This document shows positions 1,664 to 54,094 of a DNA stretch of 64,000 bases, in pieces (the stretch's first letter is position 1; each line of letters starts with the position of its first letter). The DNA comes from Phycisphaeraceae bacterium (GTDB lineage Bacteria > Planctomycetota > Phycisphaerae > Phycisphaerales > Phycisphaeraceae). The position numbers and the translations under genes were made by a program. The DNA lies in assembly GCA_020849625.1 (NCBI GenBank), contig JADLFV010000021.1:1-64000 (forward strand), read 5' to 3'. Below the pieces are notes generated by a model. It was given only the letters and a program-made list of their open reading frames with translations, was not told the origin of the DNA and did not search any database.

Positions 1664-1841
1664 TTGAACCGCAGAGACGCGGAGGACGCAGAGGAAGACA
1701 AAAACAGAGAAGGAAGGCAGGAAGACAGGAACCGCAGATTTCGCAGATGACGCAGATTAAGAAGTAAAAATCTGCGTCATCTGCGAAATCTGCGGTTTTT
1801 TTACTGTCTTCCTCTGCGTCCTCCGCGTCTCTGCGGTTCAA
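1664..1841. repeat. Word-repeat palindrome, family A (CCGCAGAGACGCGGAGGACGCAGAG / CCGCAGATTTCGCAGATGACGCAGATT)
   Basis: Nested inverted arms between rmuC stop and UDP-sugar dehydrogenase. Confidence 0.92.
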
Positions 1842-3209: not shown

Positions 3210-3302
3210 TGTCTGATGGCTGATTGCTGATTGCTGATGTCAGAAGCGGTACGAACCACAATGTCTTAACATCAGCAATCCGCAATCAGACATCAGCAAT
3301 TG
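3210..3302. repeat. Word-repeat palindrome, family F (CTGATTGCTGATTGCTGAT / ATCAGCAATCCGCAATCAG)
   Basis: Inverted arms in intergenic DNA. Confidence 0.85.
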
Positions 3303-4514: not shown

Positions 4515-4518
4515 GGCG

Positions 4519-4648
4519 GGAAATTCGAAACTCGAAATCCGAGACTCGAAATAAATCCAAAATCACAAACTCGAAGCCGGATGACGACTATTTGAGTTTT
4601 GCGGTTTGGAGTTTATTTCGAGTTTCGAGTTTCGGATTTCGAGTTTCC
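4519..4648. repeat. Word-repeat palindrome, family B (AAATTCGAAACTCGAAATCCGAG / CGAGTTTCGGATTTCGAGTTT)
   Basis: Inverted arms between convergent genes. Confidence 0.9.
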
Positions 4649-4650
4649 CC

Positions 4651-8457: not shown

Positions 8458-10155
8458 ATGACCGCCATCGCCCTGATCCCGGTTGATCTGGAGCGCACCG
8501 CGCTGAACGGCCCGGGCTGCGCCGGCGAAGCGGTGGCGGGTCGGCCGCTGCTGTGGCACACCGTGCAACTCGCCCGCCGCATCGAGGGCATCACCCGCGT
8601 GGTCGTTATCCATCCAGGGGCACAACAAGTTGCGCCGTTGATCGACGGCGCTGACACGTTCGCCGTCGATTCGCTGGATGATCGCTGGGTGAAGCGCTGG
8701 CACATCGCCCGACGCTGGTCGCCGCGCGGTTGGCGCGGTGGACTGGGCGGCGCGACGGTGTTCGATGAATGTCTGCCGGCCGGGCCGCTGCTGCAAGCGA
8801 TGGATCACTTCAAGGCCGAGCATGCCGTGCTCTTGCGCGGCGAGTGGTGCCTGCTCGATCCCGCGTTGTGCGGACAGGTGCTGGCCAAACACCTGGAAGC
8901 GCCCGATGCTTTCAAAGCCTGCTTCACGCAAGCGCCGCCCGGCATCTGCGGCATCGCCACCAGCCGCGACGTGCTCAGCCAACTGCACGAACATCATGCC
9001 GCGTTCGCGCACATCCTGGGCTATCAACCTACCGCGCCGCAGGCCGACCCCGTGGGCAAGGATGTCAACCTGCCCATCGATTCCGACCTGCGTGACACGC
9101 ATCTGCGCCTGATCGGCGACACAACAGACAGCCTCGCACTGATCCGCCGCATCGCCGATGAACTGGGCGACGATTTTGCCGACGCTGATGCCGACACCAT
9201 CGCCGCGACCGCTCGCCGGATATCGCAATTTCCTGAACTTCCAGACTGGATACACGTGGAGTTGACACCGCGGCGGCAGGTGACCGGGCCGATCACGCCG
9301 CAGCATTACGTGACGTTCGAGCGCCCGGACATGGATGTCGATCTGGCGGGCCGGATTTTTCAGCAGCTTCCCGCCGGTGAAGCCTGCGTCATGTTCGGCG
9401 GCCTGGGTGATGCGCTGCTGCATCCGCAATGGGACACCATCGTGCAACAGGCCCACGAGGCCGGCGTCGCGTCCATCGGCATCGAAACGGACCTGCTGTG
9501 CGATGAGTCGGACCTGACAAATATTCTGGAGCTTCCGATCGACGTGGTCGTAGTGCGCTTGAACGCTGACCGTGCGGAAACCTATCGCCGCGTGATGGGT
9601 GAAGACCTGTTCCGCAAGGTGATCGAGAACCTGCAGTCGCTGTTCAACCAGCGCAATCGTCGCGGTAATGACTTACTTCGGGGGCTTGGATCGAGCCGGA
9701 CTCTGCGAGTCCGGTCCGGGAACTCCGGGCACACAGTGCCCGGCTCTGTTGCGGGGGTGGGGGTGCCGTGGATTGTGCCGAGCATGGTCAAGACGGCCGA
9801 GACGCTGGGCGATCTGGAAGGTTTCTTCGACAAGTGGGTTCACCTGTCGGGCCACGCCTTGCTGGACGGACCGCGTTGCGGTTGCGGGCTGATGCCGGAG
9901 CAGGGCGTGGTGTGCATGACGCCGCCGGATCGCGGCCCTTGCCGCCAACTCGGGCGGCGCATGAGCATTCTCAGTGACGGCAGCGTGGCCCAATGCGATC
10001 AGGACTGGCAGGGCCGCGGGGCTTTGGGTGATCTGAAGATCACCGCTTTGGCCGATATCTGGCAACAGGCGCATCAACTGGCCGCCGCCCACGAGCAGGG
10101 CCGATACACGCAGTTGACCTTGTGCGGCTCGTGCGGCGACTGGCACCGGGCGTGA
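8458..10155 (+). CDS. SPASM-domain protein with N-terminal nucleotidyltransferase-like region; degenerate radical-SAM core
   Basis: N-term MTAIALIPVDLERTALNGPGCAGEAVAGRPLLWHTVQ (NTP-transferase-like); C-term CGCGLMPEQ...CRQLGRRMSILSDGSVAQCDQDWQG...LCGSCGDW is SPASM-like; CxxxCxxC replaced by RQVTGPIT. Confidence 0.7.
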   Translation: MTAIALIPVDLERTALNGPGCAGEAVAGRPLLWHTVQLARRIEGITRVVVIHPGAQQVAPLIDGADTFAVDSLDDRWVKRWHIARRWSPRGWRGGLGGATVFDECLPAGPLLQAMDHFKAEHAVLLRGEWCLLDPALCGQVLAKHLEAPDAFKACFTQAPPGICGIATSRDVLSQLHEHHAAFAHILGYQPTAPQADPVGKDVNLPIDSDLRDTHLRLIGDTTDSLALIRRIADELGDDFADADADTIAATARRISQFPELPDWIHVELTPRRQVTGPITPQHYVTFERPDMDVDLAGRIFQQLPAGEACVMFGGLGDALLHPQWDTIVQQAHEAGVASIGIETDLLCDESDLTNILELPIDVVVVRLNADRAETYRRVMGEDLFRKVIENLQSLFNQRNRRGNDLLRGLGSSRTLRVRSGNSGHTVPGSVAGVGVPWIVPSMVKTAETLGDLEGFFDKWVHLSGHALLDGPRCGCGLMPEQGVVCMTPPDRGPCRQLGRRMSILSDGSVAQCDQDWQGRGALGDLKITALADIWQQAHQLAAAHEQGRYTQLTLCGSCGDWHRA

Positions 10156-10256
10156 GGCTTAAGGGGTGAGGCTTGAGGCATGAAGGTTTTGATTCGCAAG
10201 CCTCAACTCGCAACCCTCAAGCCTCAGGACTCAAGCCTTAAGCCTCAAGCCTAAAG
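10153..10256. repeat. Word-repeat palindrome, family C (GAGGCTTGAGGCATGA / CTCAAGCCTTAAGCCTCAAGCC)
   Basis: Inverted arms between SPASM gene and cytidylyltransferase gene. Confidence 0.9.
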
Positions 10257-11000: not shown

Positions 11001-11169
11001 TGAAACCGCGGATGTTTTAGAGCAGAAGACAAAATGAGCCACGAAGGCACGAAGAACACGAAGACAGGACCAAGTGTATGGGTTTTCCCTTCGTGACCTT
11101 CGTGCCTTCGTGGCGAATCCAGTAATGTTAGGGGCTATTAATCTCAATCCGCGTTCATCCGCGGTTGCC
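11001..11169. repeat. Word-repeat palindrome, family A variant (CCACGAAGGCACGAAGAACACGAAG / CTTCGTGACCTTCGTGCCTTCGTGG)
   Basis: Nested arms between neuA-like and neuC-like genes. Confidence 0.88.
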
Positions 11170-15865: not shown

Positions 15866-16007
15866 AAACTCGAAATTCGAAACTCGAAACTCGAAATAAA
15901 CCCGAAACCTCAAAGTTCACCGGGTGCCGCTTTTCCCCCATTCGAGTTTTGAGATTATTTCGAGTTTCAGGTTTCGTGTTTCGGGTTTTGTATTTCGGGT
16001 TTATTGT
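15866..16007. repeat. Word-repeat palindrome, family B
   Basis: AACTCGAAATTCGAAACTCGAAACTCGAAATAAACCCGAAA ... TTTCGGGTTTTGTATTTCGGGTTTATT. Confidence 0.9.
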
Positions 16008-20095: not shown

Positions 20096-21147
20096 ATTTT
20101 CTCAGGCGAATCGCATTATTCCTGATCGGGGCGGCAGTCATCGGCTGTGCCATCGCAGCCCACGGCGATTCGATCCGCCTCAACGATCAGGCGGTCGCGC
20201 GCGGCGGCAGCATCACGCTGGGCCAGATCGCCGAACTGGATGGTGTTTTGGCCCAGGCCCTGTCGGACACCGTGGTCGCCACGATGACGGATCAGCAGAA
20301 TCGTACGACCGTGACGCTGGACACCGTCCGCCGGGCTTTGGAGCAGCGCAAAATCAACTGGGCTGATGTTTCTCTGTGTGGCTACGCCGCCTGCCGGGTG
20401 GTGATCCCGGAGGCTGAACCGTCTGTTGCTGTTTCTGATGCTTCACTTCCGGGGGGGGTGAGCAATCCGCGTGACGAAGTGACGCTGAACAGTCGCATGA
20501 CGTTGCGTGATCTGCTGATCGAACGCATCGAGCGCATGGCTGGGGCTTCAAGTGACCAGTTGCAGATCAATTTCGACCAGCGCGACGACGAGCAGCTCAA
20601 GCGCACGATCTTCGGCCAGCGCTACGAGGTCGAGCCGCATACGCAGAACGGCCTCGGTCGCCTGCTGCTGCGGGTGCGCCGTTACGAGCTGGACCAGGTG
20701 GTCGAGCAGTTCACCATCGCTGCGGACGTGAGTAAGCGCCTGCTGGCGGTGGTCGCCGCGACGGCCGTCGAGCGCGGCCAGAGCTTCACGTCCGGCAACT
20801 GCGAGGTGCGCCAGATTCTGCTCGATGACGCCAACGTGCAGCCGCTGGAGGATCCCGACCTGCTGCTGGGTCAGACCGCAGCCAGGCAACTGCGTGCGGG
20901 CCAGACCATTGTGAACGAAGACGTGCGCTCGGCTGTGCTGATCAAGCGCGGCGAGCTGGTCATGGTTCGCTGCATCAGCGGCAACCTGGTCATCCGCACC
21001 ACCGCCCGGGCTGTGCAGGACGGGGCCATGAACGAAACCATCCGCCTGCGCAACGAGCGCAGCCGCGAGGAATTTTCCGCATCCGTCACCGGCCTGCGCC
21101 AGGCCACGCTGACGCTCAACGCTGACACCACCTTGGCCATGCCATGA
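20035..21147 (+). CDS. flgA: Flagellar P-ring formation chaperone FlgA
   Basis: Position between flgG and flgH; C-terminal SAF-like region VVAATAVERGQSFTSGNCEVRQI...AARQLRAGQTIVNEDVR..VLIKRGELVMVRCISGNLVIRTTARAVQDGAMNETIRLRN. Confidence 0.88.
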   Translation: MRAKPMTTKPTAYCLLPTAWDFLRRIALFLIGAAVIGCAIAAHGDSIRLNDQAVARGGSITLGQIAELDGVLAQALSDTVVATMTDQQNRTTVTLDTVRRALEQRKINWADVSLCGYAACRVVIPEAEPSVAVSDASLPGGVSNPRDEVTLNSRMTLRDLLIERIERMAGASSDQLQINFDQRDDEQLKRTIFGQRYEVEPHTQNGLGRLLLRVRRYELDQVVEQFTIAADVSKRLLAVVAATAVERGQSFTSGNCEVRQILLDDANVQPLEDPDLLLGQTAARQLRAGQTIVNEDVRSAVLIKRGELVMVRCISGNLVIRTTARAVQDGAMNETIRLRNERSREEFSASVTGLRQATLTLNADTTLAMP

Positions 21148-21866
21148 AACTCACGCCCATTTGCCTTTACATTCTGTTGATCGTCACGGCTGACAGCGCG
21201 TGGGCCCAGTCCTCGTCGCTGTATCTTCAGGTCGAGCCGCAGGCTTCGCCCTATGCCGCCATGCAGCGACCTGATGCCATGCGCCAGGACCGGTTACCCG
21301 CGGCGGTGGCGGCGTTCAGCATTACGGCCGTGGACCTGGCCGAGCCGCGCTTCTTCGCCGTCAACGATCTTGTAACCATCATCGTCCGCGAATCGACGGT
21401 CACCGATTTCGAGTCCACGCTCAACACCGAGAAAAAGAGCGACTACAAAGGCGAAATCAGCGACTTTCCCAACCTCGACCTGATGAAACTGCTTCAGTTC
21501 CAGTTGCAGGGTTCAGCCAACACCAATCCGCCCAAGCTGGGCATCACCTTCAACAAGAAGTTCGAAGGCGACGGCGAATACTCGACCAAGAACGAAATCT
21601 CCAGCCGCCTGGCCGCCCGCGTCATCGACGTCAAGCCCAACGGTACGCTGGTGCTCGAAGCCCGCAAGTTCATCCAGTCCGACAAGGAAACGCTCTCGCT
21701 GGTGCTCACCGGCACCTGCCGGGCTGAGGACGTCGATGCCGACAACACCGTGCTCTCGACCAACTTTTACGACCTGAACCTGGTCAAGAAGCACGAGGGC
21801 GACCTGCGCAAGGCCACCAAGCCCGGCATTTTGACCCGCGTGTTCGATTTCCTGTTCGCGTTTTAA
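21144..21866 (+). CDS. flgH: Flagellar L-ring protein FlgH
   Basis: VNDLVTIIVRESTVTDFESTLNTEKKSD...IDVKPNGTLVLEARKFIQSDKETLSLVLTGTCRAEDVDADNTVLSTNFYDLNL. Confidence 0.93.
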   Translation: MKLTPICLYILLIVTADSAWAQSSSLYLQVEPQASPYAAMQRPDAMRQDRLPAAVAAFSITAVDLAEPRFFAVNDLVTIIVRESTVTDFESTLNTEKKSDYKGEISDFPNLDLMKLLQFQLQGSANTNPPKLGITFNKKFEGDGEYSTKNEISSRLAARVIDVKPNGTLVLEARKFIQSDKETLSLVLTGTCRAEDVDADNTVLSTNFYDLNLVKKHEGDLRKATKPGILTRVFDFLFAF

Positions 21867-21877
21867 GTGAGGCGGAT

Positions 21878-23068
21878 ATGAAGATTGAAGTAAGAAGGCG
21901 AAAGCGAAGGCACCGAGGCACCAAGGCACCAAGGCACCAAGGGTCGTGCTTGCGGTCGCATGGTCAATCCCTCGGTCCCTCGATGCCTTGGTGCCTTGGT
22001 GCCTTCCTCCTCGGTGCCTTGGTGCCTATTCTTTTCGCCTCTCCCGCTTTCGCGCTGAAGATCGAAGACGTCGTGCGCCTCAAAGGCTCCGAGGGCGGCA
22101 CCATCACCGGCGTCGGACTGGTCGTCGGCCTCAACGGCACCGGCGACGGCGGCAAGTACGCACCGGCCATGAAGGCTCTCAAGCAAATGCTGGCCAACAT
22201 GCAGGACGCCACCGTCACCGCTGACGAGCTCAAGGACGCCAAGAACGTCGCGGTGGTCTATGTCTCCTGCCGCCTGCCGGACACCGGCGTGCGCGAGGGC
22301 GATCGACTCGATGTGCACCTGGCCACGGCCGGTGCGTGCAAGAGCCTGCGCGGCGGGCGGCTGGTGTTCACGCCGCTGTTTACGCCCAACAAGAACGCCC
22401 AGCGCCTGTTCGCCGTGGCCGAGGGCGCGGTGGTCATCGAAGACGACGCCATCCCCACCACCGCCAAGGTGGACGGCGGGGCTCAGATGGTGGCGGACAA
22501 CTTCACGCAACTGATGGACAACGCCGGGCGGCTGACGCTGGTGCTCGATGATTCGATCGCTTCCTGGAGCGCAGCCAAGAACATCTCAGATGAAATCAAC
22601 AGCATCTTCACGCTCGACGGCTCCGAGCCGGTGGCCCGGGCCCTGGATCAGAAGAACGTCATCGTGCTGGTGCCCGGCCACAGCCGCCAGGATCCGGCCG
22701 CGTTCGTCAGCTCCATCCTCAACCACTACATCCATCCCTCCAGCGTCGCCAATGCCGCCAAGGTCGTCATCAATCAGCGCACCGGCACCATCGTCATCGG
22801 CGGCGACGTGGAAATCTCGCCCACGCTGATCTCCCACCAGGGACTGACCATCACGCTGCTGACCCCGGCCCCCGAGCCGACCGCCTTCAACCCGCAAGTG
22901 ACAGAGCAGAACTTCGTGCCGCTGGATCCATCCAAACGCGGTGGCGCCCGGCTGGCGGACCTGGAAGCTGCTTTCAACCTGCTCAAGGTCGAGGCCCAGG
23001 ACCGCATCGAAATCCTCAAGGCCATGCACGAGGCGGGCTACCTGCACGCACAGTTGATTCTGGAATGA
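21878..23068 (+). CDS. flgI: Flagellar P-ring protein FlgI
   Basis: LKIEDVVRLKGSEGGTITGVGLVVGLNGTGDGG...VLVPGHSRQDPAAFVS..; start either 21878 or 21983; signal peptide overlaps a word-repeat palindrome. Confidence 0.95.
   Translation: MKIEVRRRKRRHRGTKAPRHQGSCLRSHGQSLGPSMPWCLGAFLLGALVPILFASPAFALKIEDVVRLKGSEGGTITGVGLVVGLNGTGDGGKYAPAMKALKQMLANMQDATVTADELKDAKNVAVVYVSCRLPDTGVREGDRLDVHLATAGACKSLRGGRLVFTPLFTPNKNAQRLFAVAEGAVVIEDDAIPTTAKVDGGAQMVADNFTQLMDNAGRLTLVLDDSIASWSAAKNISDEINSIFTLDGSEPVARALDQKNVIVLVPGHSRQDPAAFVSSILNHYIHPSSVANAAKVVINQRTGTIVIGGDVEISPTLISHQGLTITLLTPAPEPTAFNPQVTEQNFVPLDPSKRGGARLADLEAAFNLLKVEAQDRIEILKAMHEAGYLHAQLILE
21894..22054. repeat. Word-repeat palindrome, family J (CACCGAGGCACCAAGGCACCAAGG / CCTTGGTGCCTTGGTGCCTTCCTCCTCGGTGCC), inside flgI 5' end
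   Basis: Both arms in frame within the FlgI N-terminus. Confidence 0.9.
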
Positions 23069-34348: not shown

Positions 34349-34555
34349 ATGCGCTGGCTCGCACCCCTCATGCTTCTGACCCTGCTGTCGCTGACCGGAT
34401 GTAACACGGTCAAAGGCTTCGGCACCGACATCCACGACGTCGCCCAGAACACCCAGACCTTCTTCGAAGGCGGCACCGGGTACAACACCGACTCGCGCAC
34501 GCCCAGCCCCAATTCCTCCTCGCGCGCTATCAACCGCACCGCGTCGGCGTATTGA
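34349..34555 (+). CDS. Entericidin A/B-like small lipoprotein
   Basis: MRWLAPLMLLTLLSLTGCNTVKGFGTDIHDVAQ (lipobox LTGC plus NTVKGFGxDI). Confidence 0.8.
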   Translation: MRWLAPLMLLTLLSLTGCNTVKGFGTDIHDVAQNTQTFFEGGTGYNTDSRTPSPNSSSRAINRTASAY

Positions 34556-34661
34556 TGTCTGATGGATGATGGATGAAGGATGATGAAAAGAAATGCGCGA
34601 TCGCCGCGCCTTTCACTTCATCCATCATCCATCATCGATCAGACATCATCCATTAGACATT
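34555..34661. repeat. Word-repeat palindrome, family G (GATGGATGATGGATGAAGGATGATG / CATCCATCATCCATCATCGATC)
   Basis: Between entericidin-like gene and clpP (convergent). Confidence 0.9.
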
Positions 34662-37341: not shown

Positions 37342-37510
37342 GCAAACCGCGGATTCTGAGCGCCATGAGAAATCGAGATAAACAAACCGCAGATTTCACA
37401 GATGGCGCAGATTTGAATGTCTTAATCTGCGTCATCTGCGCAATCTGCGGGTTCTGTCTTCTTGGTTTGTTCTGTTGCCTTTCTTGGCGCTCTTGCGTCT
37501 TGGCGGTTCA
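37342..37510. repeat. Word-repeat palindrome, family A
   Basis: ACCGCAGATTTCACAGATGGCGCAGATT ... AATCTGCGTCATCTGCGCAATCTGCGG. Confidence 0.9.
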
Positions 37511-53080: not shown

Positions 53081-54094
53081 ATGAGCGCTGCGGACAATCC
53101 AACCTCTCACAGCACGGGCACGCCGCGCACCCGCCTGGCGCCTTCGCCCACCGGAGCCCTGCACCTGGGCAATGCCCGCAGCTTCATCATCAACTGGGCC
53201 CTGGCCCACCGCCATGGCTGGAGCATCCTGCTGCGCATCGAAGACCTCGACGGCCCGCGCCTCAAGCCAGGCACCGACCTTCAAGCCATCGACCTGCTCC
53301 ACTGGCTGGGCATCGACTGGGACGAAGGTCCGCTCTACCAGACGCATGATCTGTCGCCCTACGCTGCCGCATTGGAAAAGCTCGGCCGCGCCGGCCTGAC
53401 CTATGCTTGCACCTGCACCCGCAGCGACATCGAGCAGGCGGCCAGCGCTCCGCACGGCGACGAACACGAACTGCGCTACCCGGGGACGTGTCGGGTATCG
53501 GGTGTCGGGTATCGGGTATCGGGAAGATCCATCCGACCCGAAACCCGATACCCGAAACCCGCTACCCGATCCGCCTGCATTCGCGTCATCGCGCCCGATG
53601 AAGCGATTGATTTCACCGACACGCTGCACGGCCCACAACAGATCAACGTGCAGCAACAGGTCGGCGATTTCATCGTGGCGACCAAGGCTGGTCTTCCCGC
53701 TTACCAACTGGCCGTGGTGGTGGACGATGCGCGGCAGGGCATCAGCGAAGTCGTGCGCGGCGATGATCTGCTTTCCTCCACCGCACGCCAAGTGCTACTC
53801 TATCGTTATCTCGATCTGCAACCGCGGCCGCGCTACACGCACCTGCCGCTGGTCCTGGGCAGCGACGGCAAAAGACTGGCAAAACGGCACGGCGACACGC
53901 GGCTGCTGACCTATCGCCAGCGCGGCGCGCCTGCGGAGCGCGTCATCGGCCTGCTCGCTTACTGGTCCGGCATCACCAGCCATCGTCAGCCGATGGACGC
54001 CGGCGAGTTCGCGGCTGGATTTGACCTCAAGCGTCTGCCGCGGGAACCTGTCACTTTCACCAGGGAAGACGACGCATGGCTGCTCAACGCTTGA
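53081..54094 (+). CDS. gluQ: Glutamyl-Q tRNA(Asp) synthetase with internal word-repeat insert
   Basis: RLAPSPTGALHLGNARSFIINWALAHRHGWSILLRIEDLDGPR; TCACTRSDIEQ...YPGTCR zinc site; DDLLSSTARQ. Confidence 0.9.
   Translation: MSAADNPTSHSTGTPRTRLAPSPTGALHLGNARSFIINWALAHRHGWSILLRIEDLDGPRLKPGTDLQAIDLLHWLGIDWDEGPLYQTHDLSPYAAALEKLGRAGLTYACTCTRSDIEQAASAPHGDEHELRYPGTCRVSGVGYRVSGRSIRPETRYPKPATRSACIRVIAPDEAIDFTDTLHGPQQINVQQQVGDFIVATKAGLPAYQLAVVVDDARQGISEVVRGDDLLSSTARQVLLYRYLDLQPRPRYTHLPLVLGSDGKRLAKRHGDTRLLTYRQRGAPAERVIGLLAYWSGITSHRQPMDAGEFAAGFDLKRLPREPVTFTREDDAWLLNA
53495..53575. repeat. Word-repeat palindrome, family D, inserted in frame in gluQ
   Basis: GTATCGGGTGTCGGGTATCGGGTATCGGG ... CCCGAAACCCGATACCCGAAACCCGCTACCCG; 81 nt = 27 codons. 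Confidence 0.92.

Follow-up and report, generated by a model that had tools for sequence, protein, structure and literature searches.

The window, by which we mean the whole 64,000-nucleotide stretch analysed here, carries a flgI gene neighboured by flgA, flgH and a gene for a rod-binding protein. Its product is matched by the profile PF02119 over residues 61-394 (E = 5e-66) and is the sole full-strength FlgI match in the genome, a 4.82-Mb planctomycete draft of 154 contigs. From the preferred start codon (Table 1) the frame is open through a palindrome of short repeated words, and through two extra words that follow it, into mature FlgI; the signal peptide predicted from this start is 59 residues long. 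We also noticed a 12-nt direct repeat (TGAAGATYGAAG, 11/12 identical) at the start codon (21879-21890) and at the mature N-terminus (22056-22067), reading MKIE and LKIE, respectively, which may be either chance or the trace of a duplication.

Table 1. Features of the flgH-flgI junction and the flgI leader, with the further palindromes of the window
Feature	Coordinates	Strand	Basis
flgH stop codon	21864..21866	+	flgH ORF 21144-21866, PF02107
GAGG, Shine-Dalgarno-like, 5 nt ahead of ATG 21878	21869..21872	+	sequence
flgI, 396 codons, preferred start ATG 21878	21878..23068	+	ORF, PF02119
n-region MKIEVRRRK, host-derived	21878..21904	+	translation, in-silico excision
Palindrome left arm, RAGGSACC words, reads RHRGTKAPRHQG	21906..21943	+	
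Palindrome loop, 25 nt, matching the loop of the C91 copy at 18/26 positions	21944..21968	+	
Palindrome right arm, reads SLGPSMPWCLGAF	21969..22006	+	
Internal ATG in right arm, without Shine-Dalgarno, within hairpin stem	21983..21985	+	
Two extra right-arm words CCTCGGTGCCTTGGTGCCT, encoding the core of LGALVP	22009..22027	+	
Signal-peptide end ILFASPAFA (ATT CTT TTC GCC TCT CCC GCT TTC GCG), host-derived, AxA-type cleavage motif	22028..22054	+	alignment with relatives
Mature FlgI (LKIEDVVRLKG...)	22055..23065	+	PF02119 from residue 61; relatives align from here
Further palindromes in the window	1730-1797, 3213-3296, 4518-4649, 10149-10251, 11038-11114, 15866-15988, 34553-34648, 37387-37450, 53491-53569		

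The palindrome in flgI (21906-22006, 101 nt) consists of two 38-nt arms that are 87% complementary, each an array of one 8-nt word. This word is best rendered as RAGGSACC, with two variable positions and the others nearly fixed. The consensus of the element is GAAGGCACC...GGTGCCTTC, and the two extra words beyond the right arm match the right-arm words at 95%. A first-pass annotation of this DNA had described the palindrome, its coordinates and the translations of both arms, with all of which the sequence and its translation agree. It had further taken the arms for word repeats, a reading borne out by counts beyond chance: GGCACCAAGGCACC occurs seven times in the window at up to two mismatches against 1.2 expected, with no shuffle reaching seven, and genome-wide there are 17 occurrences, compared to 0 of its reversed control. 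Nine further palindromes of other short words (e.g., CGCAGATTT, CTGATTG, AACTCGAAA, GTGAGGCTT, GCCACGAAG, GATGGAT and CGGGTATCGGGT) represent several lexicons in a window rich in such structures. The RAGGSACC-type word itself is near-absent from 60 relatives and at background in most of 393 other genomes of the phylum, and several hits inspected in G084, G343 and G075 are other word palindromes. Analogous palindromes with the words GACCGATT, CACGGAGACA and CACCAAGACA occur in other planctomycetes (L154, L157, L170 and L171; genomes G084, G075 and G343), and the class thus looks widespread.

A covariance model built from nine copies of the element retrieved seven more, giving at least 16 dispersed copies of 82-103 nt in the genome at E < 1e-8; the double word was counted 55 times and its reversed control 0 times. 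The loops of the copies are more alike (mean best identity 11.6/26) than shuffled loops (9.9, with a maximum of 10.3 in 200 shuffles), which suggests that the copies share descent as whole elements and did not arise by independent expansions of the word. With locations assigned by a codon-score gene call, ten of the 16 copies are intergenic, mostly in tight gaps (e.g., between prs and rplY, between the genes for an acyl carrier protein and a dehydratase, upstream of the galactokinase gene and upstream of dapA), and the remaining six are translated. No target-site duplication was found around the copies, whose flanks share words of 4.2 nt compared to 3.6 nt between unrelated flanks. Mobilisation by RAYT transposases was rejected, since no double word lies near any of the four Y1 transposase (PF01797) genes found in the genome. 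The element is non-autonomous and probably spread by copying.

Besides flgI, translated copies are found in five genes whose homologues are without these inserts. In pyrG, of which the genome yielded a single copy, the element makes up residues 493-522, where the Thermus CTP synthase (PDB 1vco) has four residues; in bioA it makes up residues 366-396 against two residues in 3dod, and in a PlsC-like acyltransferase residues 270-303 against about four in seven relatives. In NuoM it forms a C-terminal extension past the end of homology, after residue 510, and in an ABC-2 permease an N-terminal extension. Intragenic palindromes placed at N-termini can be annotation errors, as has been pointed out (PMC3733652). 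Homology that flanks the element on both sides disposes of this objection in pyrG, in bioA and in the PlsC-like gene, and for flgI it is answered in part by the upstream start and the want of a usable downstream one. The product of bioA (P0002, contig C66) also has a second insertion compared to 3dod, at residues 211-255, which amounts to about 33 residues, contains cysteine and is not the palindrome. The right arms in the soluble enzymes read S/R-rich (SVPRCLDASVP; L138:2915-3014, L143:2963-3063 and L151:2955-3036), unlike the W/L-rich right arm in flgI (window 21969-22027), although the numbers are small.

The FlgI leader displays the features of a Sec signal peptide, with a basic n-region (MKIEVRRRK...), a strongest hydrophobic window, LLGALVPIL, of mean hydropathy 2.63 over nine residues (h9), and AFA ahead of LKIED. 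The P-ring protein FlgI requires a cleaved signal, and translation from any start codon past the repeat would give a protein without a usable one; the repeat must therefore be translated and supply most of the h-region, which on the translated sequence appears to be largely repeat-encoded. The protein with this leader is presumably exported. In-silico excision of 35 codons (21905-22009) gives a normal-looking leader of 24 residues, MKIEVRRRKLGALVPILFASPAFA (h9 = 2.52), the core of which, LGALVP, still consists of repeat words, whereas excision of all repeat-derived codons leaves host sequence only, MKIEVRRRKILFASPAFA, of 18 residues. The first-pass annotation had proposed that the two arms furnish a charged n-region and a hydrophobic h-region with an AxA cleavage site. 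What holds of this is the translation of the repeat and its contribution to the h-region; the left arm is not needed for an n-region that already begins with the basic, repeat-free MKIEVRRRK, the hydrophobic core lies mostly in the extra words beyond the palindrome, and the cleavage site belongs to host sequence. Among 36 relatives, each with flgH upstream of flgI, all 36 FlgI proteins have ordinary signal peptides (20-49 residues from the first ATG, with ordinary hydrophobic cores) and none has the repeat. Neither of the two findings that the first-pass annotation named as contradicting its proposal, the same signal peptide in orthologues from genomes without the repeat family or a true start past the repeat, was made. 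The leader in the window is thus longer than any of these, and its flgI lies within their range in the distance from the flgH stop codon to mature FlgI (188 nt here; 72-281 nt, median 127, in the relatives). No empty site was seen in flgI at the DNA level, the closest relatives sharing only 55% FlgI identity and the best named ones (Pirellulales/Planctomycetaceae MAGs) only 42%.

The properties of the encoded peptide follow from the word. As an 8-nt word returns to phase after 24 nt, an array of it encodes the same cyclic octapeptide in all three frames, which is KAPRHQGT for one strand and GALVPWCL for its complement, and as the element is palindromic, a basic segment precedes a hydrophobic one in either orientation. 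Across the six frames of all 16 copies, hydrophobicity is higher over the final 13 residues than over the initial 13 in 96/96 frames. The initial 13 residues carry a mean charge of +1.9 and the final 13 one of +0.5, and the initial part exceeds the final one in positive charge in 68/96 frames. Stop codons interrupt 18 of the 192 arm frames and 32 of the 96 whole-element frames, compared to 47% for 101-nt frames drawn at random from the genome. The basic-then-hydrophobic pattern at flgI is hence a property of the word and not of the site: it is automatic, and the first-pass reading of it as a special adaptation to export is not supported, for every copy has it in every frame and the same element sits in soluble enzymes, where nothing is exported.

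We consider it likely that a dispersed palindrome inserted in frame in the segment of flgI that encodes the signal peptide, and that translation from ATG 21878 yields the 59-residue signal peptide. In this scheme, a non-autonomous palindromic repeat of about 100 nt would have landed in a flgI whose ancestor probably had an ordinary short signal peptide. Translation would then run through the entire element, so that the leader would combine the host residues MKIEVRRRK, a repeat-coded basic stretch, a repeat-coded h-region (PWCLGAFLLGALVP) and the host c-region ILFASPAFA. The compatibility of such an insertion with export would stem from the make-up of the element, whose stop-poor 8-nt words give a basic-hydrophilic and then a hydrophobic segment in any frame or orientation. 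Some observations stand against an insertion. Neither an empty site at the DNA level nor a target-site duplication was seen, and full removal of the repeat leaves only 18 residues, which implies that the old h-region was partly lost or that the extra words (22009-22027) came in as a separate gain; the n-region, of 35 residues, is also unusually long. An in-frame insertion that was tolerated or co-opted at the FlgI signal peptide is nevertheless the best reading.

That the palindrome was recruited and kept under selection because the arms serve well as n-region and h-region would agree with an h-region that is now largely repeat-encoded in a protein that needs a signal. It would also agree with the T variants of the word (giving W and L), which are somewhat richer in the right arms of flgI, nuoM and the permease than in those of pyrG, bioA and the PlsC-like gene, by a hand count too small for significance. 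We regard such selected exaptation as unlikely, because the pattern is common to all 96 frames, the frame used by the palindrome core in flgI comes only 66th among the 96 by hydrophobicity, and MKIEVRRRK already makes the basic arm superfluous. A start at the ATG within the right arm, with the left arm as an untranslated leader, would yield a signal peptide of 24 residues (MPWCLGAFLLGALVPILFASPAFA), a length that fits the relatives. This ATG, however, has no Shine-Dalgarno sequence, while GAGG precedes ATG 21878; it lies inside a very stable hairpin, belongs to a GATG variant common in other, non-coding copies, and would give an n-region without a charged side chain, whereas ATG 21878 is 11 nt past the flgH stop codon, as in many relatives. 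Its use is decidedly improbable, and it was rejected as the main reading for want of a Shine-Dalgarno sequence and for its place in the stem.

The fold of the palindrome as RNA (z = -7.1), in a hairpin that begins about 28 nt past the start codon, would accord with an RNA element that controls flgI and whose coding capacity is incidental. Differences between the copies are, however, uncompensated across the stem, with changes on both sides at only 2 of 38 pairs, below the shuffles, which argues against selection on the hairpin. The copies also lie in many unrelated genes, and the Rfam search gave no family above the gathering cut-off, only sub-threshold microRNA hairpins; we hold this function to be quite improbable. 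An assembly artefact might be suspected in a draft of so many contigs, but it is hardly credible given frames that are open across all intragenic copies, normal gene neighbours and host sequence that continues correctly on both sides of the copies.

The element documents intragenic palindromes of the Rickettsia type in a planctomycete lineage, in a single-copy pyrG among other conserved genes. It also points to a simple rule that would account for their tolerance, namely that stop codons are scarce and that each frame gives an identical peptide, and flgI is a concrete case, amenable to testing, in which a repeat supplies the core of a signal for export. For the origin of signal peptides and protein inserts, the implications are real but for the present modest. 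A more general proposal, which we put forward tentatively and think rather doubtful, is that word palindromes with a word length that is not a multiple of three constitute frame-independent protein modules. Any such element with this word would encode a basic and then a hydrophobic segment wherever it inserts and would be pre-adapted as a source of signal peptides or membrane anchors, flgI being one case of a recruitment that would have recurred.

The element matches none of the known families with which it was compared, and a search of a literature collection for its words as sequence strings returned no published description. REP and the GTAG and CGTC palindromes associated with RAYT transposases are short and dispersed, also found in Planctomycetes and in some cases intragenic (PMC3733652); the stem in our element is much longer, its consensus has no GTAG or CGTC tetranucleotide, and no copy lies beside any of the Y1 transposase genes found. 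PARCEL, the palindromic amphipathic repeat coding elements, are 25-residue tandem protein motifs, often in membrane-targeted ORFs (PMC2996958). They too are palindromic DNA encoding an amphipathic or hydrophobic repeat peptide, but the element here is a single inverted array of 8-nt words, encoding the cyclic octapeptides given above and no tandem 25-mer. With the MITEs, which are non-autonomous dispersed inverted repeats able to fuse in frame (PMC10969869), it has the dispersed inverted repeat and the in-frame fusion in common; it differs in that no target-site duplication was found and no related transposase was identified in the search for Y1 transposases. The Rickettsia palindromic elements (RPE; Ogata et al. 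2000, 2002), as summarised in two papers (PMC10969869, PMC3733652), are dispersed palindromes of about 100-150 bp, many of which lie in frame in unrelated protein genes, a placement that is their hallmark. The element resembles them in being palindromic and dispersed in multiple copies (here 82-103 nt, at least 16), and in inserting in frame in conserved genes (here pyrG, bioA, the PlsC-like gene and flgI), to which it adds a few tens of residues. It differs in its host, which is a planctomycete and not Rickettsia, and in arms that are degenerate arrays of 8-nt words, so that its peptide is independent of frame. Likened to the RPE by description, and not filed among them, it thus appears to behave as they do.
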